Positions 8,751-64,000 of a stretch of DNA of 64,000 nucleotides are shown here, piece by piece. The notes under the pieces were generated by a model. It was not told where the DNA came from and did not search any database. It saw only the letters and a list, made by a program, of their open reading frames with translations. Numbering within the stretch: the first letter of the stretch is position 1; each line of letters starts with the position of its first letter. Made by a program: the position numbers and the translations under genes. The stretch spans positions 6,386,001-6,450,000 of the forward strand of contig NZ_CP045643.1 of the NCBI RefSeq assembly GCF_009498275.1. The letters run 5' to 3'. Source of the stretch: Streptomyces fagopyri (lineage in GTDB: Bacteria > Actinomycetota > Actinomycetes > Streptomycetales > Streptomycetaceae).

Positions 8751-9291
8751 GACGTGAAGGTATGCGAGCCCCTTGGCCGCGACATGCCGAGGGCCCTGTC
8801 GTCACGGCCCGGCCGTCACAGATTGCTCTGGTCGACGGCAGCGACAGCGTGGCTGAGGCTCGTGGGGGCGGAGCGAGGCATACGCGTGCGTGGTCGGTTG
8901 CCGCGCCCGCCGTCGTGGCTGACTGTTTTCGGCTGAGGCTCAGACGGCGCGCATCGACGGTGCCAGCTGTCAATCACGCGTGGCAAAGCCGGGCCGCGTC
9001 TGGATGGGCGGGACGGCCACGGGTTGGCCGTGGACGATCGCCCCACGCCGCCTCGCCGACACCTTCCAGCGCAGAGCCCACCATGCCGAGCCGCCGCCGG
9101 CCGCCGCACCCGCCGATGTTCACCCGGCTCTTGTTCTCGTTCTTCGCCCCGCTCGCCACGAGCACGCCTATGCGGATGGCGACCTGGCTGCTGCTGCCGC
9201 CCGGCACACCGGCGGGCACCTGGACGACCCTGCTCCTTCAGACCGCCGGCACCGCGGCCTACGCCTGCGCGCGACCGAGGTGGTAGGCGGT
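8751..9291. other. Gap without a convincing gene
   Basis: About 540 bp with only overlapping, compositionally poor reading frames. The best is a 56-residue hydrophobic frame on the plus strand (ATG 9116 to TAG 9286, FTRLLFSFFAPLA near its start) without a ribosome site. It could be a decayed membrane protein. Confidence 0.4.
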
Positions 9292-9321
9292 CCGGGCCCC
9301 CGGATCGATCCAGGGGCCCGG
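9292..9321 (-). terminator. Palindromic terminator of the secreted protein gene
   Basis: CCGGGCCCC (9292-9300) and GGGGCCCGG (9313-9321) enclose GGATCGATCC, giving a nearly perfect 30-bp dyad with one mismatch. It lies 15 bp past the stop codon of the minus-strand gene at 9336. Confidence 0.75.
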
Positions 9322-9335
9322 CAGGGTGAGCTGGA

Positions 9336-11900
9336 TCAGCGGACGTCGACGAAGTCGCCACTGGAGGTGGCGGTCGCGGTGGTGGACGTAGCGGTGAAGG
9401 CGTACCTCCAGTAGCCGTCCGTCGATGCCTTCACCGTGGTCTTCAGGCCTCCCGTGCTGCTGGTGGAGACCGTCTTCACCGTCGTGTACGCGGACGCCCC
9501 CTTCTTGCGGAACTGGAGCATCACCTTCTGTCCGACGTATCCGTGGTAGCCGCCGAGCGTCTCCCAGTCCGCGCGGGAGAGCTTGCCCGTGATGGTGATC
9601 GTCTTGCCCTTAGTCACCGGCTCGGGAGACGCGTCGGCCGTCACCGTCGCGTCGCGCAGCACGGACGGCGACTTGGCCGCGTGCAGATCCACGTGCCCCG
9701 TGCCGTCCGCGGACTCGGCCCAGACGGCGGCTTTCCAGGTACCGGCGAGGGAGTTGCGGCCGAGGGTCCAGCGGGGCTGGATGTAGGCAAACTCCGTCTC
9801 GCAGGTGGAGGTGGTCGCGTTCGTCTTGGTACAGGTCGCCGTCCAGGTGCCGTAGAGGATGGCGTCGGGGCTGGCGTACGACCCCCGGTAGAGGTACATG
9901 TCGCCGTTCGCGATTCCCGACGGGTCGGTCGCGGTGAACTTCGCCTGGAAATACTGGAGCGGCTGGTCGGTCAGCTCCACCGGCTTTCCGCCGTTCACCA
10001 CGACGTTCGAGATACGGGTCGCGCCCACCGTCTCGTCGCTCGGCGTGGCCGGGCCCCCGAACGCCCGCACGATGGTGCGGCGGAGGCTGCCGCCCCCGTC
10101 GTCGTCGGCGGTGACGCGCAGGGTGACGAAGGAAGCGGTGGCGGGTACGTCCAGGGTGGCGGAGCCGTCGGCCGCGACGGGCAGGTCGGTCCAGCTCGTG
10201 CCGTCGTCCGTGGAGTACGCGAGGCCCGTGACCTTGGTGTTCGCCTCGGCCGCGGCAGTGTTGCGGGTGCTCGCGCTCGCGTCGATCCGGACCGTCCCGG
10301 CAGCCGCACGGCCCAGGCTGTCAAGCCCCGAGACCTTCAGCCGGGCATCGATCAACGGGAGTTCCCTGCCCTCCGCGTAACCCGAGCGGAACGTCCACTC
10401 GTTGCGCACGTCCGTAGACAACGAGGAGTAAGGGACGCGGCGGTGCACGGTCTGGTCGAGGGCGTACACCCTCTCGAATGACGGCAGGCTCGACGACATC
10501 AGACCGTGGGAGCTGTCGAGTCCCGAAGCTTGGGCATAGGTGACGCCGTCCGACGTCAGCTTGTAGGAACTGGTCGCGCGGAAGTCGGAGCCCGAGTGGC
10601 CCGCGACGTCACCGAAGGCGTTTCCCTCGTACAGCGAGATCTTCCCGTAGTACCGCTGCGAGCCCATCCACTGGCCGCGCACCGGCTGGAGCGGGGCCGC
10701 GCCCAGGACCTCGCCCGCGCTGGTCCCGGCAGGCAGGGTGCGATCGGGAAGGTTCAGGTTCAGTTCGCCAGTGCCGTAGTTCAGGAGGCGGCTGTAGGTG
10801 ACGCCCGGGGTGGCGTACTCGGTGAGGGAACCGGCGGCCGGCACCGAGCCGCCGATGAACACCCCCGTCCACTCACCGAAAGAAGGGGAGCTCTGCAGGT
10901 ACGCGGTGGTGCGGGTGCCCGGGGCGTTGACCTTCGTGACGGTCTTCGCCAGGGCGGAGGTACGGACCGCGGTGACGGGCGAGGTGGGCACCGTCGTGGT
11001 GTAGCTGTGCGTGAGGTCGTAGCGGTAGGGGCTCGGAACGCTTGCGGAGGAGCCCTTCTTGCCGAGCACTTCGTGCAGTCGCAGCGAGACACCGGGCACC
11101 GAGAACGGGGTGACATACACCTTTTCGGGCCCGCCGCCGGCGAAGCCCGCCAGGTCGCCGCCCGGGACGCTGATCCACACGGCAGAGGAGTCCCGGGTGG
11201 CGGTGGTGTCGTCGGTGCGGATCGCGGTCTCCTTCGCCGCGCTCTGGTCGAAAGTGACCGTGGTGGCGGCCGAACCGACGGTAAAGGTACGAGTGAGCAG
11301 GTAGCTCGGCTCCAGCCAGTCGTTGTGCAACGCCACCGAGAAGTAGTCGCCCGGCGGCAGCTTCACGCTCGCCGTGCCGCCTGCGGTGTCACTGTTGACG
11401 GCGTACGACGTCCAGGTCTTGCGGTTCCAGACGTAGAAGAGCTTGGATCTGACGTCGGCGTGCGTGATGCTCAGTTTCACCGTATACGTCGACGCGGTGG
11501 CGGTCGCCGTCCTGAGACCGCTGCGCACGGTACCCGTCGCAGTCAGCGGAAGCTTCGCACCCGTACGGTCTGCCGCGGACTTCCCTGTCGGCCGTACGGA
11601 CAGCGTGCCGTTCATGGCGGCGACCGAGTAGCGGGCCGGGTGACCCCCGGAGCCTCCCGGGTCCGCCCTGACCCGGAGGTTCCGCCCGTCGACGAGTTCG
11701 ACGCGGCTACCGTCTCCCAACTCGGCACTCGACGCGCTGCGGTGTGCCGGGTCCTGTACCGAGGAGACCAGGCCTACCGTGGCGAGTTCGCCCTCCGCGG
11801 CACTCGCCACGGGTGCGAGCAGCACTGAGGCCGCGACCAACGCCCCGCTCGCTCCCACCACAGCGGGTCTTCGGATCCGCCCACCCCAAAATCCGGACAT
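9336..11900 (-). CDS. Large secreted beta-rich protein with C-terminal DUF5707-type module
   Basis: 854 residues with a ribosome site (GGGAAG) before ATG 11900. A Sec signal peptide ends near residue 34 (VASA/AE). Residues 40-620 are beta-rich repeats full of Thr, Ser and Gly with no catalytic motif I recognise. From about 625 a module begins with [14 protein letters not shown], contains two Cys, and ends with an Ig-like domain starting [18 protein letters not shown] and finishing GDFVDVR. The same two-part module forms the whole mature protein of the gene at 13401. Likely an extracellular adhesin-like or matrix protein; no cell-wall anchor is visible. Confidence 0.85.
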
Positions 11901-16740: not shown

Positions 16741-17165
16741 TTATATTTCGACGGGATCGTATGTGCCGTCGTGGAACTTGAAGGGGTTCACCTCGGTGTC
16801 GTGTACGTCGCGTATGTAGCCGCCGTAGCCTCGTTCCGCGACGTGAGGAGCGATCAGCTCGAGCAGTGCGTCAAGGTGGAGCGTGAGGTCATCTACCCAG
16901 TAGATGCGCACGAAGAGTTCCCATTCGTACCGCGTCCCCGATGATGTGAACTCCAGTACCGAACGGCGCAGGGACGCGATGTCGCCGCCGGGGAGTCGGC
17001 TCTGGCCCGGGAGGAGCAACGGGTACGGATGTCGTCCGGGTCCAGGCCTTCCGGATTTTTGACGTTGTCGTCCATGCCCATATGCCAACGCAGGGCCGCC
17101 AGAACCGAGGCAGGCGTGTCATCGTGCAGGAAGGTGGAGAAGACAAGTTCGTAGTGGTCGCTCAT
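16741..17165 (-). pseudogene. Hypothetical gene broken by a one-base frameshift
   Basis: From ATG 17165 the frame encodes MSDHYELVFSTFLHDD to GLDPDD (about residue 45), then degenerates. The next frame carries on at once with HPYPLLLPGQSRLPGGD and ends DGTYDPVEI at 16741. Adding one base around 17030-17040 joins them into about 141 residues with a coherent sequence. It is either a decayed gene or a sequencing/assembly slip. Family not recognised. Confidence 0.65.
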
Positions 17166-17410
17166 GGCCCGCATTCTGTTCGACTGCACTGACATCGCAC
17201 TGTCGTCGGTAACAGGTCCCGAGCCGGACGCGTGGCCGTTTGTACAGGGAACCACGTGGAACACCGGGGGTTGATGCCTCGAACCGCCTATGCCTACCAA
17301 GCCGAGAGCCCTGTGGCCGAGTGTCGTCGGTTGATTCGCAGAGCACGTGCAGTTCTTCACCTCTGGGTGTACCTGGCACGGTGCATCCGTTGAAGCTGAC
17401 CAGTGCAGAA

Positions 17411-17443
17411 GGGGGAAGAGTCAGGGGTGTTCGGCTCTTCCCC
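17411..17443 (-). terminator. Terminator of the GntR/small-gene operon
   Basis: GGGGAAGAG (17412-17420) pairs perfectly with CTCTTCCCC (17435-17443), about 55 bp beyond the last gene of the minus-strand operon. The rest of 17166-17497 shows no gene. Confidence 0.7.
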
Positions 17444-17497
17444 ATGTGCGGGAGATCGGAACGTTGCTGCCGGCGACCGCCCATGCCGATTGTCCTC

Positions 17498-17794
17498 TCA
17501 GGAGCGGTGAGCGTTCACCTCCCGAAGCTGACCGCGGCTGGTCGCAATGCGGAGGACGTCCCGCAGAGCTCCGGCCATTTCCTTCGCCAAGAGCCGCAGG
17601 TCTTCAGGGGTTGCCTGCTCCTCGGTGAGGGATTCCACCTGGTCCAGCAGTTCAGCCGCCGAGCCGAGCTGTATCGATTCGATGTTGTCCGCCAGGCGGG
17701 ACATGAAGCCGTCCCTGTCGTCCGTGCTCAGGTAGCACGGCTTGCCCTCGGGCCCCGTCCACGGGAGAAGTCGTAATTCGTCCTGCGCCGTCAT
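17498..17794 (-). CDS. Small helical protein coupled to a GntR regulator
   Basis: 98 residues, mostly helical and acidic (DNIESIQLGSAAELLDQVE; AKEMAGALRDVLRIA). Its start overlaps the GntR stop by 4 bp (ATGA), so it is translationally coupled. I do not recognise a domain; pairing with a GntR regulator suggests an accessory or partner role. Confidence 0.75.
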   Translation of the reverse strand: MTAQDELRLLPWTGPEGKPCYLSTDDRDGFMSRLADNIESIQLGSAAELLDQVESLTEEQATPEDLRLLAKEMAGALRDVLRIATSRGQLREVNAHRS

Positions 17795-18522
17795 CCGTGC
17801 TTCAGCCTCTCGTTGAGTACGTGGTGGGTAGTGAAAATTGCCTCGACGCGGTCTCCGGGGAACACCAGGAGTGCGGCTTCGAGGACGTGGCCGGCGGTGT
17901 CGGCGGCTACTCGGGTGATCGCGAGTACTGCCAGGCCCGGGTTGATCCGGAGAGCGGAAGCCTCATCTGGCGTCGGGAGGCGGGCGGAGACTGTCTCGCG
18001 GACCTCCGCCGACAGGGCGCTCAGAACGGCAAAACTCGCTTCTGCACGCACGTAGGAAGCGCCGTTGTCGAGTACTTCAGTGGGTTCCGGTCCGCGGGGG
18101 ACGTAGATGCGGGCCAGGCTGTGCGGGGAGTCTCCCTCGTAGCTGACGCTGAGGTATTCGGTCAGCGGGCTGCCGTTGGGGAGGCGTAGCAGGGCTGCCA
18201 GATGTCCGTGAGCTTCGATCGCGGTGGCCTGGTCGGTGACGCGCAGAGCCGTTTCGGCCGCCGTCCACGGGTCCAGCGTTCCCCAGCCTCCGACGTATGT
18301 GATCTTGCGGGGGCGGTGGCGGACGTAGTTGCCCTTGCCGTGGATCTTCTCGACCAGGCCTTCCCCTTGCAGTAGCGCGAGGGCGCTGCGCAGGGTCGCT
18401 GTGCTGACCGTGTATCGGTCGGCCAGCCCGGATTCGGATGGGAGGCGTTCGCCGGGCTTGATGCGGCCGGTCGTGATCTGGCGCCGGAGGTCGTCGGCGA
18501 TGTCGTGGTGGCGGGCAGGCAT
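17791..18522 (-). CDS. GntR-family regulator with UTRA domain
   Basis: 243 residues. GntR winged helix at about 1-70 (PSESGLADRYTVSTATLRSAL recognition region) and a UTRA-type sensor in the remainder. The start at ATG 18522 places the HTH directly at the N-terminus; longer frames lack support. It belongs to a minus-strand run of tiny genes that begins at 19587, and ATGA overlap links it to the next gene. Its own operator is not obvious. Confidence 0.88.
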   Translation of the reverse strand: MPARHHDIADDLRRQITTGRIKPGERLPSESGLADRYTVSTATLRSALALLQGEGLVEKIHGKGNYVRHRPRKITYVGGWGTLDPWTAAETALRVTDQATAIEAHGHLAALLRLPNGSPLTEYLSVSYEGDSPHSLARIYVPRGPEPTEVLDNGASYVRAEASFAVLSALSAEVRETVSARLPTPDEASALRINPGLAVLAITRVAADTAGHVLEAALLVFPGDRVEAIFTTHHVLNERLKHG

Positions 18523-18530
18523 GGTCCGGG

Positions 18531-18755
18531 TCACCGCCTTCTCGACATGCGTACGGCGAGTAGCCGGGTCCGTGTGTGCATGGTCAGCAACTCGCCTGAC
18601 TCGAAGAGCAGTTGTTTGGCTCCTTGGGGCAGCTGGAAAAGGTCTCTCACTCTGTACGCGTGACCGCCGATCTGGATGACGTCGCCGCGTTGCACGGTCG
18701 TCGAGGTGATCTCGACTTGGGAGACCAGCGCGCCGCTGGGCGTTCAGTCCCTCAC
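18531..18755 (-). pseudogene. Small conserved gene with nonsense codon at position 4
   Basis: A GGAGGT ribosome site precedes GTG 18755, overlapping the upstream stop (GTGA). The frame reads V-R-D, then TGA (18744-18746), then continues without another stop as TPSGALVSQVEITSTTVQRG, DVIQIGGHAYRVRDLFQL and ends RMSRRR at 18531. The remainder looks like a conserved 70-residue Streptomyces protein. Without readthrough, only a shorter product from the internal GTG in the TTVQRG segment is possible. Confidence 0.65.
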
Positions 18756-18958
18756 TGCTGCACCTCCGTGGGTGCGGGCCGGCTGGGCGTCGAGTGGCAC
18801 GGGCAGGCGCACGCCTCGTACACCACCGGTACATCCACCGGTGCCGCGTCGGGGGAGGACTCCGAGCAGGCGTGGTGTGTGCCGAGCCGGCACGCGGTCG
18901 ACCGGTAGGGGATGGGTGAAGTGTCCGTGATTCGGGGGCGCTGGTGGGCGGGCATCAT
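18752..18958 (-). CDS. Cysteine-rich small protein
   Basis: 68 residues from ATG 18958, with GGGAGG just upstream. Five cysteines and several histidines (STACRLGTHHAC; EACACPCHS) suggest metal binding. It overlaps both the preceding gene (by 4 bp) and the following broken gene (GTGA). Such tiny Cys-rich proteins travel with GntR regulators in Streptomyces; function unknown. Confidence 0.75.
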   Translation of the reverse strand: MMPAHQRPRITDTSPIPYRSTACRLGTHHACSESSPDAAPVDVPVVYEACACPCHSTPSRPAPTEVQQ

Positions 18959-19269
18959 CGGCCTCCCGCGAGGAGCGACCAGGCCGCGGGTGGCAGATGG
19001 GGGGCCACGATCATCGAATGCCGTGGGCGTCTGCGCTCCTCCCAGGCCAGGACGTACGGTCGAACGAGGAGGATGTCCGGCCCCGTTGGCGAGTCCATGC
19101 GGTGGGGGCGGCCGGGGTGTTGCCGCAGGATGGCCGCGGCCTCGGCAACTGGCGCCGAGCGGGCGCGGGCACCCGTCGGTCCCGTGGAGGCTAAGGCGCG
19201 GCGGTGCCGGTCCTTGGGGGAGTGGTGCCTTCTGGTGAGTGAGAGGGCGCGGCGGATGCGGTTGAGCAC
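18955..19269 (-). CDS. Basic small hypothetical protein
   Basis: 104 residues, very basic at the N-terminus (LNRIRRALSLTRRHH), with a core DILLVRPYVLAWEERRR found in many Streptomyces small proteins next to regulators. It overlaps the next gene by 4 bp. Function unknown; the fold may bind nucleic acid, judging by charge only. Confidence 0.7.
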   Translation of the reverse strand: MLNRIRRALSLTRRHHSPKDRHRRALASTGPTGARARSAPVAEAAAILRQHPGRPHRMDSPTGPDILLVRPYVLAWEERRRPRHSMIVAPHLPPAAWSLLAGGR

Positions 19270-19281
19270 GGGTTTCAGCTC

Positions 19282-19587
19282 CTATCGCTGATGGCTGGGT
19301 CCCCCGACATCGCCCGTCGCGGGGGCCGTTTTGCGTACGACCGCCCAGAGGGTGCGGCCGTTCAGGCTGGTGGCGAAGAGGCCGAATCGATCTGCCTCGG
19401 CCACCACTTCCAGGACCTCCCGCCATGAGTCCGCGGAGAGCTCTTCCGGCACCTCCGCTTCGATCGAGGTGTGCCGGTCGTGTTCCTCCAGGCGCGTGGG
19501 GAGCCCAGCGGCGGACAGTCGTGCGGCGATGGCGGCCGCGCTTACTCCCGAAGCGGGCACAGGGCAGCCTCCGTCACCGGCGATCAC
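19282..19587 (-). CDS. Small hypothetical protein, first gene of the tiny-gene operon
   Basis: 101 residues with alternating helices and strands (AIAARLSAAGLPTRLEEHDRH; WREVLEVVAEADRFGLFATS; GRTLWAVVRK). It faces the GntR gene at 19639 across the operator region 19599-19629, so it is probably controlled by that regulator. No domain recognised. Confidence 0.72.
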   Translation of the reverse strand: MIAGDGGCPVPASGVSAAAIAARLSAAGLPTRLEEHDRHTSIEAEVPEELSADSWREVLEVVAEADRFGLFATSLNGRTLWAVVRKTAPATGDVGGPSHQR

Positions 19588-19598
19588 TTTGAGTAAAG

Positions 19599-19629
19599 CT
19601 AGTTAACTAGATTAGGGCTAGTGGACTAG
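19599..19629. promoter_or_regulatory. Paired CTAG-palindrome operators
   Basis: CTAGTTAACTAG (19599-19610) is a perfect 12-bp palindrome. CTAGTGGACTAG (19618-19629) repeats its arms 19 bp further on. They lie in the 51-bp gap between divergent genes, 10 bp before the GntR start. Likely GntR binding sites controlling both directions. Confidence 0.75.
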
Positions 19630-19638
19630 ATTTTCTAC

Positions 19639-20394
19639 ATGCCTGAGCAGCCGCCGTATCTCCGTATCGCCGACGAACTCCGGCGGCGCATCGCGGAGCA
19701 CGTCTGGGAGCCGGGGGATCGCCTCCCCTCCCGTTCCCAGATCGGCCAGGAGTGCGGCGTGGGCGAGAACGTGGTGCGCCGGGCGCAGGAGTTGCTGATC
19801 TCCCAGGGCGTGTTGGAGGGCCGGGCCGGTTCGGGGACGTACGTGGCCGAACCGCGGCAGCGGGTGCGGGTCGTCCGTTCGTCAGCGCGCGAGCAGCCGG
19901 ACGGGTCACCGTTCCGTACGGATATGAAGGCAGTCGGCAGGCAGGGTGACTGGGAGAGCCGGACCGACGCCAAGGTGCCGGCGCCCGAGGAGATCGCGCA
20001 GCGTCTCGGTATCGCGGACGGCGACCTGTGCGTCCGGACGACGTACGAGTTCCTGGCCGATGGCAGGCCGGTGCAGCTGTCGACGAGTTGGGAGCCCTAC
20101 GACCTCACCGCCGGCACTCTCGTCGTTCTCCCGGAGGGCGGGCCGCATGCCGGAGCGGGTGTCGTGAACCGGATGGCCGCCATCGGTGTCACCGTCAGCC
20201 ATGCCGTGGAGCAGCCGGAGCCGCGGCAGGCGACCGCCGAGGAGGCGTCCCTGCTCGGCATCCAGAAGGCCGCGCTTGTCACGCACATCCGGCGGACGTA
20301 CTACAGCGACCAGGGGCGACCGGTCGAGACGGCGGACATCGTTGTGCCCGCTGCGCACTGCGAGATCGTTTACGAGATCCCGATCAACCGGTAG
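19639..20394 (+). CDS. GntR-family regulator with UTRA domain
   Basis: 251 residues: GntR winged helix at 5-70 (PSRSQIGQECGVGENVVRRAQ) and UTRA domain at about 95-250 (LSTSWEPYDLTAGT; ETADIVVPAAHCEIVYEIPINR). It is a paralogue of the regulator at 17791 and of the AICE repressor. The adjacent CTAG palindromes point to autoregulation and control of the divergent tiny-gene operon. Confidence 0.92.
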   Translation: MPEQPPYLRIADELRRRIAEHVWEPGDRLPSRSQIGQECGVGENVVRRAQELLISQGVLEGRAGSGTYVAEPRQRVRVVRSSAREQPDGSPFRTDMKAVGRQGDWESRTDAKVPAPEEIAQRLGIADGDLCVRTTYEFLADGRPVQLSTSWEPYDLTAGTLVVLPEGGPHAGAGVVNRMAAIGVTVSHAVEQPEPRQATAEEASLLGIQKAALVTHIRRTYYSDQGRPVETADIVVPAAHCEIVYEIPINR

Positions 20395-57633: not shown

Positions 57634-58482
57634 TCACCGGGGGTCGAACGTGACCGGCGTCTCGAAGGCGGCCCGCCGGGTGGCCCGGCGCAGCGCCCTG
57701 AGGAGCGGCGCGCCCAGCGTCAGTGTCAGGACGACCGTCACGACGGCCCGGCCCAGGTCCCAGCCGAGCGAGGTGGCCAGGCAGTACGCGAGGAAGCGGG
57801 CCAGGTTGGCGGGGACGCCGGCGTGCGGGTCGAAGGCGACGTTCGAGGCCAGCGCGTTCATGAAGGGCCAGCCCTCCAGGTTCATGACGGTGCCGTACGC
57901 GAAGGCGGCCAGGAACCCGTACGCGGCGAGCAGCGACAGCTCGGCGCGCCCGCGCAGGCGGTCCGGCCCCGGCAGCAGTCCGGCGCCCATCGTGAACCAG
58001 CCCATGGCGAGCATCTGGAACGGCATCCACGGCCCCACCCCGCCGGTGAGCAGCGCGGACGAGAACATGGTCACGGACCCGAGCACGAACCCGAACCCCG
58101 GTCCGAGCACCCGTCCGCTCAGCACCATCAGGAAGAACATCGGCTCGATCCCGGCGGTCCCGGCCCCGATCGGCCGCAGGGCGGCACCGGTCGCGGCCAG
58201 CACCCCGAGCATGGCCACCGCCTTCGGGCCGAGCCCGGACTCGGAGATCGTCGCGGCCACGACCGCGACGAGCAGGACCAGCAGCCCCGCGAACAGCCAG
58301 GGGGCGTCCTGCGCGTGTGTGCCGACCTGGGAGGCGGGGTCGGCGAAGAGCGGCCAGCCGAATCCGGCGACGCCGATGACGCTCACCAGGCAGAGCGCGG
58401 CGAGGGAGCGGGGGCCGAGGCGGACGGCACGGACCTGGGGCTGGTGCGGTGCGGGGCGTCGTGGGGTGCTGGACCCGGTCAT
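57634..58482 (-). CDS. ECF transporter S (substrate-binding) component
   Basis: 282 residues; start overlaps the preceding gene stop (ATGA). About 7-8 helices, including AMLGVLAATGAALRPIGAG, FFLMVLSGRVLGPGFGFVLG and PFQMLAMGWFTMGAGLLPG, the typical glycine-rich membrane architecture of ECF S components that capture vitamins or cofactors. It is the last gene of a five-gene operon and partners the A-A protein and CbiQ-type T protein encoded upstream. Substrate not readable from the sequence. Confidence 0.85.
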   Translation of the reverse strand: MTGSSTPRRPAPHQPQVRAVRLGPRSLAALCLVSVIGVAGFGWPLFADPASQVGTHAQDAPWLFAGLLVLLVAVVAATISESGLGPKAVAMLGVLAATGAALRPIGAGTAGIEPMFFLMVLSGRVLGPGFGFVLGSVTMFSSALLTGGVGPWMPFQMLAMGWFTMGAGLLPGPDRLRGRAELSLLAAYGFLAAFAYGTVMNLEGWPFMNALASNVAFDPHAGVPANLARFLAYCLATSLGWDLGRAVVTVVLTLTLGAPLLRALRRATRRAAFETPVTFDPR

Positions 58483-60212
58483 GCGAGCGTGTCCCTCGTG
58501 AGCGCGTCCCTGATCTGGGCGACGGTGAGCCACGGCTGCGGGGCCAGCACCTTCGTGACCTGCGGGGCGAAGGACGGGGACGCGACGACCACCTCGGCCG
58601 TCGGGCCGTCGGCGACGACCTCGCCGTCCGCGAGCACGACCACGCGGTGCGCGAGCTCCGCGGCGAGTTCCACGTCGTGGGTCGCCAGGACGATGGCGTG
58701 CCCTTCGGCGGCCAGCTCGCGCAGGATGGCGACCAGCCGGGCCTTCGCCGCGTAGTCGAGGCCCCGGGTCGGTTCGTCGAGGAGCAGCAGCGGGGGGCGG
58801 GCCGTCAGGACGACGGCCAGCGCCAGCGCCAGCCGCTGCCCCTCCGACAGGTCCCGGGGGTGGGTGTCGTCGGTGATCGCGGGCAGCAGCGCGGAGACCA
58901 GTGCCCGGCAGGTACCCGCCTCGGCGCCCGCGTCGGCGTCGGCCGCGGCGCACTCGGCGGCGACCGTGTCGGCGTAGAGCAGGTCCCGTGGCTCCTGCGG
59001 TACGAGACCGACGCGCCGGATCAGGTCCTGGGGTGCCGTCCGGTGCGGGACCGCGCCTTTGACCCGGACGGATCCGGCGGCCGGTTCGACCAGCCCGACC
59101 AGTGTGCCGAGCAGGGTGGACTTGCCGGCTCCGTTGCGTCCCATCAGCGCGACGATCCCGCCGGGGGAGGCGGTCAGGTCCACGCGGCGGAGCGCCTCGA
59201 CCGGACCGCGGCGGACGGCGAGGCCCTCGACGACGGCGACCGGTGCGGCCGGGTCCGGGGAATCGGGGGTGTGCCGGCGCAGGAGACGCGGACGCGGACG
59301 TGCGGGCGGGAAGGACCGGGGACGCGGGGGCGGCCCGGCGGCGGGGGCGCCCGACGCGGGGCGGAGCCCGCGTGCCGAGGTCGCCGGCGGTACGAGCTCC
59401 GCGAGCCGTTCGCGCAGCGCCCCCGCCCTGCGCCGCGCGTCGCGCACGGTGAGGGGGAGCGGGGACCAGCCGGCCAGCCGGCCGAGTTCCACCACCGGCG
59501 GACACACCGGGGAGACGGCCATGATCTCGGCCGGGGTGCCGAGGAGCGGCGGTGTCCCGGGGGAGGGGAGGAGGACGACGCGGTCGGCGTACTGGATGAC
59601 GCGTTCGAGGCGGTGCTCGGCCAGCAGGACGGTCGTGCCGAGGTCGTGGACGAGGCGCTGCAGGACGGCGAGGACCTCCTCGGCCGCGGCCGGGTCCAGG
59701 GCGGAGGTGGGTTCGTCGAGGACCAGGACCCGCGGATGGGGGGTGAGGACCGAGCCGATGGCGACCCGCTGCTGCTGACCGCCGGAGAGGGTGGCGATGG
59801 GGTGGTCACGCAGGTCGGCCAGGCCCAGCAGATCGAGGGTCTCCTCGACGCGGCGGCGCATCACCGCCGGTGCGATACCGAGCGACTCCATGCCGTAGGC
59901 GAGTTCGTCCTCGACCGTGTCCGTCACGAAATGGGACAGCGGGTCCTGGCCCACCGTGCCGACTACGTCGGCGAGTTCACGTGGTTTGTGGGTGCGGGTG
60001 TCCCGGCCGGCGACCGTGACACGACCGCGCAGGGTGCCGCCCGTGAAGTGGGGGACGAGACCGCCGACCGCGCCGAGAACGGTGGACTTGCCGACCCCGG
60101 ACGGCCCGGCGAGCAGCACCAGTTCACCCTCGGGCACCTCGAAGTCCACGCCCTGGACGGTGGGTTCGGCCGCTCCGTCGTACGTCACGGAGACATCCTC
60201 GAAGCGGATCAT
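58479..60212 (-). CDS. Fused ECF ATPase (two ABC domains)
   Basis: 577 residues. First ABC: Walker A GPSGVGKST at 36-44, signature LSGGQQQR, Walker B VLVLDEPT. Second ABC after a Pro/Arg linker: Walker A GRNGAGKST, signature LSEGQRLALA, Walker B LLLLDEPT. Most ECF systems use two separate ATPases (EcfA and EcfA'); here they are one chain. Starts overlap on both sides with neighbours, fixing the frame. Confidence 0.94.
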   Translation of the reverse strand: MIRFEDVSVTYDGAAEPTVQGVDFEVPEGELVLLAGPSGVGKSTVLGAVGGLVPHFTGGTLRGRVTVAGRDTRTHKPRELADVVGTVGQDPLSHFVTDTVEDELAYGMESLGIAPAVMRRRVEETLDLLGLADLRDHPIATLSGGQQQRVAIGSVLTPHPRVLVLDEPTSALDPAAAEEVLAVLQRLVHDLGTTVLLAEHRLERVIQYADRVVLLPSPGTPPLLGTPAEIMAVSPVCPPVVELGRLAGWSPLPLTVRDARRRAGALRERLAELVPPATSARGLRPASGAPAAGPPPRPRSFPPARPRPRLLRRHTPDSPDPAAPVAVVEGLAVRRGPVEALRRVDLTASPGGIVALMGRNGAGKSTLLGTLVGLVEPAAGSVRVKGAVPHRTAPQDLIRRVGLVPQEPRDLLYADTVAAECAAADADAGAEAGTCRALVSALLPAITDDTHPRDLSEGQRLALALAVVLTARPPLLLLDEPTRGLDYAAKARLVAILRELAAEGHAIVLATHDVELAAELAHRVVVLADGEVVADGPTAEVVVASPSFAPQVTKVLAPQPWLTVAQIRDALTRDTLA

Positions 60213-61966
60213 GAGGGCTCCTCGGGGGCGGCGGGCTCTCGGGCCGGGCGTTCCGCGGGCGGGCGGGGCGACCCGGGAACGGGGGCGACGAAGGCGGGCA
60301 GCAGGCCGACCAGCACGGTGGCCGCGGGCCACAGGGGAAGGGCCGGCGCCACCAGCGGGACGACACCGGTGCGCAGCGACACGGGGTCGTACGCGGCGCA
60401 GACGATCAGTCCGGTGGCGACGGCGACGCCGGACCCGGCCACCAGCCATGCCCGTGCGCCCCACACGTCGGGGCGGTAGCGCGTGCGCGGGGAGCGACGG
60501 CCGCCCAGCCACAGACCGCCAAGTGCGGCGGCCAGCCCGGCGAGCAGTACGGGTGGTCCGTAACCGTCGCCCTCGGCGGTCAGCAGTCCGTACGTGCCGG
60601 CGCAGACGCCGACCAGGCCGCTCAGCGTCAGGACGGCGGTGGTGCGGCGGACGGCGGGCGCCACCTCGGCGGTCCGGCCGTAGCCGCGCGCGTCCATCGC
60701 CGCGGCGAGCGCGACCGAACGCTCCAGCGCGCTCTCCAGGACCGGGAGGGCGACCTGCAGCAGACCGCGCAGGCCCCGGTCGGGGCGGCCACGCAGCCGG
60801 CGGGCGGCGCGCATCCGCCCGGCGTCGGCGATCAGGTGCGGTGCGAAGGTCAGCGCGACGACGACCGCGACACCCGCCTCGTACAGCGCGCCCGGCAGGG
60901 ACTTCAGGAGCCGTGCCGGGTTCGCGAGGGCGTTCGCGGCGCCGACGCAGATGAGGAGCGTGGCCAGTTTCAGGCCGTCGTAGAGCGCGAAGACCAGGCC
61001 CTCGGCGGTGACCCGGCCACCGATGCGGATGCCCTGCGCCCAGTGCGGGAGGGGGACCTCGGGGAGCGTCACGAGGACATGCGAACCGGGGACGGGGGAG
61101 CCGAGGAGGACCGCGAAGGCGAGACGGATGCCGAGCACGGCCAGACCGAGCCTGACGAACGCGCCGTACGAGCGGGACCAGGGGGCCGAGGTGCGGCGTG
61201 CCGCCACCACGTATCCGGCCGTGCCGACGAGGAGGGCGAGCAGCAGCGGGTTGGTGGTGCGGGAGGCGGCGGTACCCAGACCCAGGGCCCAGATCCACCA
61301 GGCGCCGGGATGCAGGGCGTTGCCGCGGTGCGTCTGCGGCGCGCGGGTACGGGGTGGCCGCCGACGCCCGCGCCCGCCGCTGCCGTCGTCCGGCACGACG
61401 GACAGGGCGGAGTCGGACTCAGGCCGGGGGAGCCGCCGGTTCGAGCGGACGCGGGCCGGGACGGGTTCGCCGGGTGCGGCGTGGGTCATGGACGTGCGGG
61501 GGGCGACGGGGGTGGCGGGTGTGGCGGGTTCGCCGAGCGCGGCGGGGGTTACAGAAGTGCCGGACGCGATGAGGGTGGCGGGGGCGTCGGGTTCGCCGGG
61601 CATCGCGGCGGGTTCGCCGAGCCCGGCGGGGGCGGGTGCGTCGGGTTGGGCGGGCGCGGCGGAGGCCGCGGAAGTGCCGGGTTCGCCGGGCACGGCGGGA
61701 GTGACAGGTGTGTCGGGCGCGGCGGAGGCGTCGGGTGCGGCGGAAGTGCCGGGTGCGGTTGGTGTGCCGAAGGCGGGCGGCGCGGATGACGCGGGCCGTG
61801 TGGCCGGGACGACAGGGGTCGCCGCCGATGGTGCCGGTGTCGGCACCGGTGCGGCAGGTGTGGCCGACAGCGGTGTCCCGGGTGGCGTGGTCGGCGCCGC
61901 GGGCCTCCGCCGGGCGACGTACCGGCCGGCCGCCGCCGCTTCCCGTTTCTCGTTGCCTGTCGTCAT
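60209..61966 (-). CDS. CbiQ-family ECF T component with long N-terminal extension
   Basis: 585 residues. The first 185 are low-complexity Ala/Pro/Gly/Glu, with GEPGTSAASAAPAQPDAPAP-like repeats, unlike standard T components of about 250 residues. The CbiQ domain follows (about 210-460) with the coupling motif AMDARGYG near 430, which contacts the ATPase groove. Downstream helices may be extra membrane segments. Stop overlaps the ATPase start by 4 bp. Confidence 0.88.
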   Translation of the reverse strand: MTTGNEKREAAAAGRYVARRRPAAPTTPPGTPLSATPAAPVPTPAPSAATPVVPATRPASSAPPAFGTPTAPGTSAAPDASAAPDTPVTPAVPGEPGTSAASAAPAQPDAPAPAGLGEPAAMPGEPDAPATLIASGTSVTPAALGEPATPATPVAPRTSMTHAAPGEPVPARVRSNRRLPRPESDSALSVVPDDGSGGRGRRRPPRTRAPQTHRGNALHPGAWWIWALGLGTAASRTTNPLLLALLVGTAGYVVAARRTSAPWSRSYGAFVRLGLAVLGIRLAFAVLLGSPVPGSHVLVTLPEVPLPHWAQGIRIGGRVTAEGLVFALYDGLKLATLLICVGAANALANPARLLKSLPGALYEAGVAVVVALTFAPHLIADAGRMRAARRLRGRPDRGLRGLLQVALPVLESALERSVALAAAMDARGYGRTAEVAPAVRRTTAVLTLSGLVGVCAGTYGLLTAEGDGYGPPVLLAGLAAALGGLWLGGRRSPRTRYRPDVWGARAWLVAGSGVAVATGLIVCAAYDPVSLRTGVVPLVAPALPLWPAATVLVGLLPAFVAPVPGSPRPPAERPAREPAAPEEPS

Positions 61967-61972
61967 CGTGGC

Positions 61973-62653
61973 TCAGCCCCGGCGGCGGCGGGCCTGCCAG
62001 ATCGCGGCCGCGCCCAGCAGGGCCACCGCCGCGAGGCCCGCGAGCAGGCCCGCGGACGGACCGTGGTGGGGTGCCCCGGACCGGGGGTGGCCGGAGGCCG
62101 TGGGCTGGTGCGGGGCCGAGACCTGCTCGCCGCAGCCGGCCCGCGGGTACCCGGCGATGGCGCACAGCAGGGCGTTGGTGTCGTAGCGGAGCGGCTTGGC
62201 CACCGAGGCCAGGGCGTCCGCCGCCGTCGCGTCGGAGGGGACGCGGGCGCAGGCCGTACGCGGTGCCGGAGGCGCTTCTCCGGAGGGGGCGTCGGCCGCC
62301 GTGCCGAAGTCGAGGACCAGGGCCACCCGTTTGGTGCCCGCCCGTGTCCCGGTCCCGGCGCAGACGGACGCGAAGTCGGCCTTCCCGCGCGGCTTCGAGG
62401 CGTCCTGCGAGTCCTCGCTCACCGCGAAGCGGAAACCCTCGACGTCGCCGTCGGACGGCCGCGCGGTCGACGGGCCCTGTGTCGCGTACGTCCAGGTGCC
62501 GCCGGTCCGGTCCCAGAAGGACCAGTAGCGGTAGCCGACGGCCTGCGCCTGCCCGGCGGCGGTGAGGACGAGCAGCAGCGGAGCGAGCAGCAGGGAGAGG
62601 AGGACCAGTGGGGCGAGGAGGGGGGCCGGGGCCGTCGTACGGCGCCTGCTCAC
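61973..62653 (-). CDS. SCO2322-like secreted, membrane-anchored beta protein
   Basis: 226 residues from GTG 62653 (GTGA overlap with the toroid gene stop). Signal sequence to about residue 33, then GYRYWSFWDRTGGTWTYATQ near residue 35 and PSDGDVEGFRFAVSED, a beta-domain pattern with conserved W and GD. A C-terminal helix (LLAGLAAVALLGAAAIW) plus basic tail anchors it. I recall the family as SCO2322-like, linked with ECF genes. Might correspond to the beta domain of intrinsic-factor-type cobalamin binders (inference). Confidence 0.78.
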   Translation of the reverse strand: MSRRRTTAPAPLLAPLVLLSLLLAPLLLVLTAAGQAQAVGYRYWSFWDRTGGTWTYATQGPSTARPSDGDVEGFRFAVSEDSQDASKPRGKADFASVCAGTGTRAGTKRVALVLDFGTAADAPSGEAPPAPRTACARVPSDATAADALASVAKPLRYDTNALLCAIAGYPRAGCGEQVSAPHQPTASGHPRSGAPHHGPSAGLLAGLAAVALLGAAAIWQARRRRG

Positions 62654-63894
62654 GGCTGCTGCTTCTTCGAGCGTCCGCTGATCAGGAAGCCGATGCCGAT
62701 GCCGCCGACGAGACCGACACCGATGATCCACCAGACGTTGACGCCCTTGTTGTCGTCCTTCTGGTCCTTCTGGTCCTTCTTCTCCGCGCCGGCGGACGCC
62801 TGGACGGCCGGGCCCGTCGCGCCGAGCCGCTCGACGAGGTCGGTGCCGCCGAACGCGCGCGGGTCGGTGCCGGTGGCGTGCGCGGCGAGGATCAGCTGCG
62901 CGTACGCGGCCGGACCGGACGCCGTGGCCCAGGGCCCGGAGTTCTTCTCCAGCCAGGCGAGGGGCTTCTTCGTCTCCGCGATCCCGCCCTGGGCGGCCAG
63001 CGCGACGACCGCGTCCGCGGTGTTGCCGTAGTCGGGCCGGTCCTTGGCGCCGGGCATCGCCGACTTCAGGTACGGGGTGTCGTGCAGCAGACGGGCGAGC
63101 TGGAAGGCGCCGTTGTTCGCGGCCTGCCCGGGCGTCGGGGTGGCCGCCTTCTCACAGGTGTAGCCGTGCGGGAGAGGCTTTCCGGCCGTCGTCACGAGCC
63201 CCTTGCCGAGGGATCCCAGCACCGCCGCGGCCGTGGCGTCCGCGTTGGCCGCCAGCGCGCCGTGCTTGTCCGGCTGGTAGGCGAAGCCGCCCGCGTCGGC
63301 GCCCTTGCCGTCGCACGGAACCGACAGCTTCACCAGCGCGTCGTACGGCGACCCGCCCTCCTTGGACTTCACGTCCCCGGGCTTGCCGCCGGCCGCGGCC
63401 AGCGCCCCGACCACCACCGACGTGGAGTTCGCGTCGCTGGGCCCGCCCGCCGTGTAGCCCCAGCCGCCGTCCTTGTTCTGTACGGACTCCAGCCAGCCGA
63501 CCGCCTTACGCGTCCCGCCGTCGTGGCCGCCGAGCGCGGCGAGGGCCTGGACGGCCGCCGCGGTGCTGTTCGTGTCGACCATGGTCTTCGTGTCGCACGC
63601 GGCCGCGGCGTCGGCGCGGTACGCGGCGAACGCGCCGTTCGCACACTGCTGACCGGCCAGCCAGTCGACGGCCTTGGACGCGGGCCGCTCGCCCACCGTG
63701 TGCTGGGCGAGCAGGGCGAGGGACTGCCGCCACACGCCGTCGTAGGTGGGGTCGGTGCTGCCGAAGAGGCCGGAGGGTATCGCCGGGGACGCGGTGGGGG
63801 ACGGGGAGGAACCGTCCGCCACGGCGGCCGGGACGAGGGCCGTACCGATCACGACGGTGGCTGCCAGTACCGCGGCGGTGCGGCGAACGATCAT
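62650..63894 (-). CDS. Secreted prenyltransferase/squalene-oxidase-repeat toroid protein
   Basis: 414 residues from ATG 63894. Signal peptide (TAAVLAATVVIGTALVPAAVA), then alpha/alpha repeats: AVDWLAGQQCANGAFAAYR, AVGWLESVQNKDGGWGYTAG with QW-like DGGWGY, and similar units to about residue 350. A C-terminal membrane helix (VWWIIGVGLVGGIGIGFLI) and basic tail anchor it outside. No prenyltransferase catalytic motif is present. First gene of the ECF operon. Extracellular ligand capture for the transporter is my inference. Confidence 0.85.
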   Translation of the reverse strand: MIVRRTAAVLAATVVIGTALVPAAVADGSSPSPTASPAIPSGLFGSTDPTYDGVWRQSLALLAQHTVGERPASKAVDWLAGQQCANGAFAAYRADAAAACDTKTMVDTNSTAAAVQALAALGGHDGGTRKAVGWLESVQNKDGGWGYTAGGPSDANSTSVVVGALAAAGGKPGDVKSKEGGSPYDALVKLSVPCDGKGADAGGFAYQPDKHGALAANADATAAAVLGSLGKGLVTTAGKPLPHGYTCEKAATPTPGQAANNGAFQLARLLHDTPYLKSAMPGAKDRPDYGNTADAVVALAAQGGIAETKKPLAWLEKNSGPWATASGPAAYAQLILAAHATGTDPRAFGGTDLVERLGATGPAVQASAGAEKKDQKDQKDDNKGVNVWWIIGVGLVGGIGIGFLISGRSKKQQP

Positions 63895-64000
63895 GACTCT
63901 CCCTGCGGGGGCCGGGCAGCACCGGGCGCAGGCTTGGCCCCGAGCGGCTCCGGCTCCGTATGCCTCGACGGTGCCGGCCACCGGCGGGCTGCCGATGGCA
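63895..64000 (-). promoter_or_regulatory. Leader region of the ECF operon
   Basis: A CCTGCG/CGCAGG stem immediately before the GGGAG ribosome site (about 63900-63930) could mask it. I could not recognise a complete cobalamin riboswitch in the visible 106 bp; more leader lies beyond the window edge. Confidence 0.35.

Follow-up and report, generated by a model that had tools for sequence, protein, structure and literature searches.

A five-gene operon on the minus strand of Streptomyces fagopyri (NCBI RefSeq assembly GCF_009498275.1, contig NZ_CP045643.1) is probably best explained as a corrinoid importer of the energy-coupling factor (ECF) type, served by two surface-anchored capture proteins. 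The analyzed DNA, referred to as the window, is the whole 64,000-nucleotide stretch at positions 6,386,001 to 6,450,000 of that contig, and the operon completely fills its positions 57634–63894 as read from the open reading frames (ORFs). The genes encode a secreted alpha/alpha-toroid protein, a secreted beta protein, a T component, a double ATPase (A-A), and a substrate-binding S component. Animal intrinsic factor, transcobalamin, and haptocorrin combine an alpha/alpha toroid with a small beta domain (PF14478 DUF4430), and these jointly hold cobalamin extracellularly. An ECF pump served by two surface-anchored, intrinsic-factor-like halves, one of them rotated in sequence order, is apparently how many actinobacteria obtain vitamin B12.

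The substrate of the importer is very likely a corrinoid (cobalamin or close relatives), and a capture role for the secreted toroid and beta proteins is likely. In the proposed mechanism, these two domains, both tethered outside the membrane, would bind a corrinoid, which would most likely be held between them as in intrinsic factor. The captured corrinoid would then be passed to the S component, and the operon's own T component and double ATPase would power uptake. Corrinoid binding, joint clamping, and hand-over are inferred, and the chances that the toroid and beta domains jointly clamp the ligand are judged about even.

Riboswitches and the need for external corrinoids

Operon regions were hand-picked at approximately one per genus (60 regions, 54 outside the window's genus and six inside it). 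In six of the 54 (L048, L050, L054, L055, L056, and L087), the contig ended at or ahead of the first gene, which left 48 testable loci. A cobalamin-class riboswitch was located directly upstream on the same strand at 45 of these, and 28 of the 45 scored at or above the Rfam gathering score (RF00174, RF01482, RF01689). Distances from the riboswitch to the first hidden Markov model match were mostly 100–350 bases (14 at L094, 447 at L069, and 571 at L065); given this spacing and the shared strand, chance placement was rejected. Two loci (L061 and L078) had an unrelated ATPase upstream, with riboswitches 180 and 122 bases ahead of the toroid match, respectively. At L092 the riboswitch preceded the T gene, and the toroid and beta matches of that genome were on a different contig. 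L062 was outside the gathering-score scan, and its riboswitch was counted from a whole-genome search (24.2 bits); another search, with a limit of E 0.01, did not recover it.

RNA families above gathering score in the operon regions belonged to the cobalamin clan only, with no other riboswitch class above cut-off, and other vitamins were rejected as substrates on this basis. The preliminary description of this DNA had proposed a corrinoid by comparison and had suggested searching upstream of orthologous operons; no different vitamin signal was seen there. The riboswitches of relatives, together with nine operon-carrying genomes that have no CbiC or FecCD match, strongly support its choice of vitamin.

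The physiology sample consisted of 30 hand-picked operon-carrying genomes. All 30 encoded a B12-binding domain, and five encoded CbiC, a marker of de novo corrin ring synthesis. A BtuC-type (FecCD) permease was matched at E ≤ 0.001 in 21 genomes (19 above cut-off). Nine genomes (G103, G175, G193, G201, G114, G210, G236, G294, and G280; 96–100% complete) had neither a FecCD match nor CbiC and, given that they carry B12-binding domains, need an external corrin ring. The operon is the sole candidate corrinoid importer in these nine among the systems searched (other importer classes were not searched).

Within Streptomyces, four of the six regions (L101, L102, L103, and L105) had an upstream match at or below the gathering score, and two (L104 and L106) had no upstream riboswitch match on the correct strand. 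Leaders of 20 window-type operons were then compared with the cobalamin clan, resulting in matches for 15 at E ≤ 1 and 13 at E ≤ 0.0015, with seven above gathering score; no cobalamin match at E ≤ 1 was obtained for L115, L120, L122, L123, or L125, the last being the window's own leader. The sole non-cobalamin match in the 20 leaders at E ≤ 1 was to a small nucleolar RNA family (E 0.27, under its cut-off). Aptamer cores of the 13 best leaders plus L122 had a mean column identity of 73%, and RNAalifold, applied to 14 Streptomyces cores, identified five pairs that changed on both sides and were still paired in at least one sequence. The aptamer is mostly retained ahead of window-type operons elsewhere in Streptomyces. 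Cobalamin aptamers were damaged or interrupted in L112, L115, L118, and L125, with GC-rich, hairpin-like core inserts in L112 and L125.

The toroid and beta proteins

The first secreted protein matched NF053823 SCO2321_fam at 614 bits (cut-off 300). Its predicted model was an alpha/alpha toroid and a fold search confirmed this, bearing out what had been read from the sequence. The protein's tail is hydrophobic, a sign of a C-terminal anchor; the model had no helix in the tail, and its predicted local distance difference test (pLDDT) score was below 50 at residues 1–22 and 382–413.

The second protein matched NF040672 SCO2322_fam at 233 bits (cut-off 85), and its GPS-CTERM anchor matched NF040681 at 32 bits (cut-off 28). 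Its model (pLDDT 87.6) had helices at residues 13–32 (signal) and 201–225 (anchor). The anchor match and these terminal helices agree with the earlier proposal that the beta protein is secreted and anchored.

A second operon in the same genome, at the start of the 8.88-Mb contig (L040; G000:C1:1-20000), encodes a 930-amino-acid secreted protein with beta and toroid-repeat domains, a 318-amino-acid beta protein, and its own T, A-A, and S components. It lies behind a riboswitch match (16968–17111, minus strand) of 31.0 bits, just below the 31.5 cut-off, and its S component shares 48% identity with that of the window. Beta domains of this paralogue type (type-2) contain the same two blocks as the window type in reverse order. 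A profile (A3) was built from 73 window-type beta sequences. When type-2 ORFs were duplicated in tandem, the best single match to A3 outscored every one of 20 half-shuffled controls in 12 of 28 ORFs and failed to do so in 16; the largest gain was 1.8 bits for 36 duplicated window-type domains and 2.4 bits for 560 duplicates with full shuffling. Against the type-2 profile, A3 scored 85 over 50 columns without rotation and 139–143 over 104–116 columns when rotated with a cut near residues 79–111. The rotation scan is, as a profile comparison, the stronger permutation test of the two, and it indicates that the beta domain of the window is circularly permuted relative to the second (type-2) beta family.

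The type-2 profile was also compared with DUF4430 (28 of 30 fetched domains), which we take to form the beta half of transcobalamin and intrinsic factor, and the two aligned with a probability of 88.9 and a score of 39.8 over 100 columns. The best of 60 column shuffles scored 23.9 (DUF4430) and 17.0 (type-2), and further controls gave 10.0 (reversed profile), 19.0 (toroid profile), and 13.3 (S profile). Eight distant regions with a remote S component were also read, four of them (L240–L243) chosen for DUF4430 on the S contig and four for comparison. A DUF4430 gene was located upstream of T in L240–L243, and the other four regions were clipped before that point. The toroid, which was not a selection criterion, followed S in seven of the eight regions, and in L245 S alone was recognized. 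The gene content of L240–L243 therefore places DUF4430, toroid, and ECF genes together.

Additional genes of L040 also touch on these families. A 503-amino-acid secreted toroid (17302–18813, plus strand) is led by an above-cut-off riboswitch, and its C-terminus weakly matched DUF4430 (E 0.013, under cut-off), which would suggest a one-chain, intrinsic-factor-like layout. The next gene (18961–19872, plus strand) encodes a PF01497 binding protein. A strong cobalamin riboswitch (78 bits; 9210–9383, minus strand) is located just 3' of the paralogous S gene.

Operon layout, importer components, and distribution

Coordinates of the five genes and the leader are provided in the table. All five reading frames are intact, and the junctions consist of three 4-base overlaps and one 6-base gap (beta/CbiQ). 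The layout described earlier was thus accurate in its five genes and overlaps, the gap being 6 bases instead of the 7 given. Family scans also confirmed the kind assigned to each gene, and S, T, and two ATPases encoded side by side make this an ECF-type importer.

Table. Features of the operon and its leader (window positions)
Feature	Position	Strand	Details
SCO2321-family secreted alpha/alpha-toroid protein, C-terminal anchor	63894-62650	-	414 aa, ATG start
SCO2322-family secreted beta protein, GPS-CTERM anchor	62653-61973	-	226 aa, GTG start; 4-base overlap with toroid gene
ECF T component (CbiQ)	61966-60209	-	585 aa; 6 bases after beta gene
ECF double ATPase (A-A' fusion)	60212-58479	-	577 aa; 4-base overlap with T gene
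ECF S component, putative corrinoid specificity	58482-57634	-	282 aa; 4-base overlap with ATPase gene
5' leader of operon	63895-64000	-	interrupted cobalamin aptamer just outside the window, window-equivalent 64022-64172

The T component matched PF02361 CbiQ at 32.7 bits (cut-off 25) across residues 255–431. Its N-terminal extension, read from sequence, is Pro/Ala/Thr-rich and approximately 200 amino acids long (61360–61966, minus strand). The double ATPase contains two ABC_tran stretches and scored 290 and 288 bits against the ECF ATPase models TIGR04521 and TIGR04520, under their cut-offs of 330 and 315. The S component matched PF12822 ECF_trnsprt at 32 bits (cut-off 30.7) and was 45–85% identical to 21 aligned family members.

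The distribution of the operon was determined in a class sample of 296 genomes and a phylum sample of 396 genomes. The S component was present in 159 class genomes (65 of 114 genera), the SCO2322 family in 125 (103 above cut-off), and SCO2321-like toroids in 142 (27 above cut-off), the 142 including generic toroids. In the phylum sample, the S family was present at E ≤ 1e-20 in 82 genomes. Named genomes, when scanned, provided at least 555 confirmed relatives, from which 80 loci were kept, including Streptomyces, Kitasatospora, Kribbella, Terrabacter, Phytoactinopolyspora, Intrasporangium, and Nanopelagicales metagenome-assembled genomes (MAGs). Kept loci not clipped by a contig end had the order beta, T, A-A, S, with or without a leading toroid; the exception was L154, a named MAG with toroid and beta genes in which no T, A-A, or S was recognized in the 8 kb read downstream. 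Loci such as L141, L145, L147, L149, and others (Phytoactinopolyspora, Actinopolymorpha, Kribbella, Humibacillus, and relatives) had no leading toroid and kept beta-T-A-A-S. Given that loci throughout the class repeat this gene order, the operon is far beyond chance, and it represents an ECF importer widespread in actinobacteria. A plasmid origin was rejected; matches to plasmids were limited to two short ones.

Alternative explanations and known systems

Several results weigh against a corrinoid importer with intrinsic-factor-like capture proteins. Seventeen of the 45 riboswitches outside the genus were under the Rfam cut-off (whole-genome searches, E ≤ 0.0034), no riboswitch was matched at three of the 48 loci (L077, L088, and L099, the first two tested at gathering score only), and the distant DUF4430 operons had no riboswitch at E ≤ 0.01. 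The RNAalifold covariation term for the 14 Streptomyces cores was slightly unfavorable (+0.84), and the case for a Streptomyces aptamer therefore rests on the Rfam models and not on the RNAalifold fold. The closest folds to the toroid were cyclases and sugar epimerases, with terpene cyclases on top, and transcobalamin was not among the 50 toroid fold matches listed. The beta model had no useful match to PDB folds, possibly because a rotated fold may escape matching. The fold comparison with transcobalamin that had been proposed was consequently divided, recovering the toroid fold and neither transcobalamin among the toroid matches listed nor a useful PDB match for the beta half. Searches of PDB sequences gave chance-level matches only for both beta families and no relative up to E 10 for the S family. 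Window-type beta aligned to DUF4430 over approximately 42 columns (score 33) and rotation brought no gain (approximately 33 at most cuts), so the link of the window type to DUF4430 is indirect, via type-2. Several lineages encode beta, T, A-A, and S with no toroid gene. Finally, the paralogous S component had a weak folate-family match (22 bits, cut-off 60); as this was the sole sign of another substrate family, the S component does not clearly belong to one, and it was clear membership in such a family that the preliminary description had named as damaging.

The many loci with a beta-T-A-A-S operon and no toroid gene, together with genomes such as G025, G030, and G044 that had no SCO2321-family match at E ≤ 0.001, are what would be expected if the beta protein alone bound the corrinoid and the toroid were an accessory (spacer, scaffold, or binder of a B12 carrier), with no intrinsic-factor-like clamp. 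This is a substantial possibility, though the less probable one, since toroid and plain DUF4430 recur together in distant operons and the paralogue fuses beta and toroid domains in a single 930-amino-acid protein. An obligatory clamp is nonetheless disfavored, because so many operons do not have a toroid gene. Cobalamin riboswitches also govern precursor and cobalt uptake, and the window genome has CbiC and could use precursors; the substrate might then be cobalt or a precursor or salvage product of B12 (cobinamide, alpha-ribazole, dimethylbenzimidazole) instead of intact cobalamin. The nine genomes that have B12-binding domains with no CbiC and no FecCD match need an external corrin ring, and cobalt uptake should need no large external binding domains, which makes this explanation improbable.

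A secreted enzyme (terpene cyclase or glycan-active) placed in the operon for another reason would agree with the cyclase and epimerase folds nearest the toroid and with its SQHop_cyclase_C match (31 bits, above its cut-off). This is very improbable given that DxDD, which we take to be the acid motif of class II terpene cyclases, was present in 0 of 46 aligned toroid proteins and that the toroid is linked to the importer in operons. In the window strain itself, the operon could have lost its B12 control and be shifting toward constitutive expression or a different role. Its own aptamer has approximately 39 extra bases in the conserved core in an alignment with 18 other Streptomyces leaders, no intact cobalamin riboswitch was identified at this copy (Rfam, E ≤ 1), some other Streptomyces leaders are damaged, and a second operon stands behind a riboswitch match in the same genome. 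With its core interrupted, this copy has probably lost its control by B12 or is controlled differently; drift of the operon as a whole is rather unlikely, with five intact reading frames and an S component 70–89% identical to the listed window-type Streptomyces orthologues. The corrinoid importer with two anchored capture proteins is retained as the overall explanation.

A broader version is held tentatively, at slightly less than an even chance: a bacterial intrinsic factor in the form of two anchored proteins, its beta half permuted in one lineage, would clamp corrinoids at the surface and feed an ECF importer on which many actinobacteria rely mainly or solely for B12, and the DUF4430-plus-toroid relatives would be the counterpart of animal intrinsic factor and transcobalamin. 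If true, this would provide a function for two NCBI families named without one (SCO2321_fam and SCO2322_fam), a B12 uptake route for actinobacteria in which CbiC and a BtuC-type permease are both missing from view, a bacterial case of intrinsic factor's two-domain capture principle built from separate surface proteins, and a natural circular permutation for studying clamp action.

ECF import of B12 is already known as a kind, and earlier predictions of actinobacterial ECF B12 systems are possible; as far as could be told, the putative novelty is the split, anchored, and rotated capture pair. The window's toroid and beta proteins are above-cut-off members of NCBIfam NF053823 and NF040672, whose names carry no function, and the importer role, class of regulator, and domain relationship proposed here are additional to those entries. 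ECF-CbrT of Lactobacillus is a cobalamin transporter with a cobalamin S component, and the present system would share this architecture; it differs in its S family without a PDB sequence relative (up to E 10), its T and fused A-A genes in the same operon, and its secreted proteins. Bacteroides BtuG/BtuH and BtuF-BtuCD capture B12 at the surface or in the periplasm and deliver it to a transporter, the same sequence of capture outside the membrane and transfer that is proposed here, but with unrelated folds and another transporter class.

With intrinsic factor, transcobalamin, and haptocorrin, the operon shares the pairing of an alpha/alpha toroid with a small beta domain, a comparison supported at the level of domain kinds and not of mechanism. 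The preliminary description had considered the animal proteins to consist of "exactly" this pair. A toroid and a beta domain indirectly linked to DUF4430 do occur here, and four distant operons have a toroid together with DUF4430 itself. Circular permutation of the beta domain in the window makes "exactly" too strong a word, and the lineages without a toroid disfavor an obligatory two-half clamp. In contrast to intrinsic factor and transcobalamin, the putative corrinoid-binding halves are separate and membrane-anchored, the beta half is permuted, and an ECF importer adjoins them.

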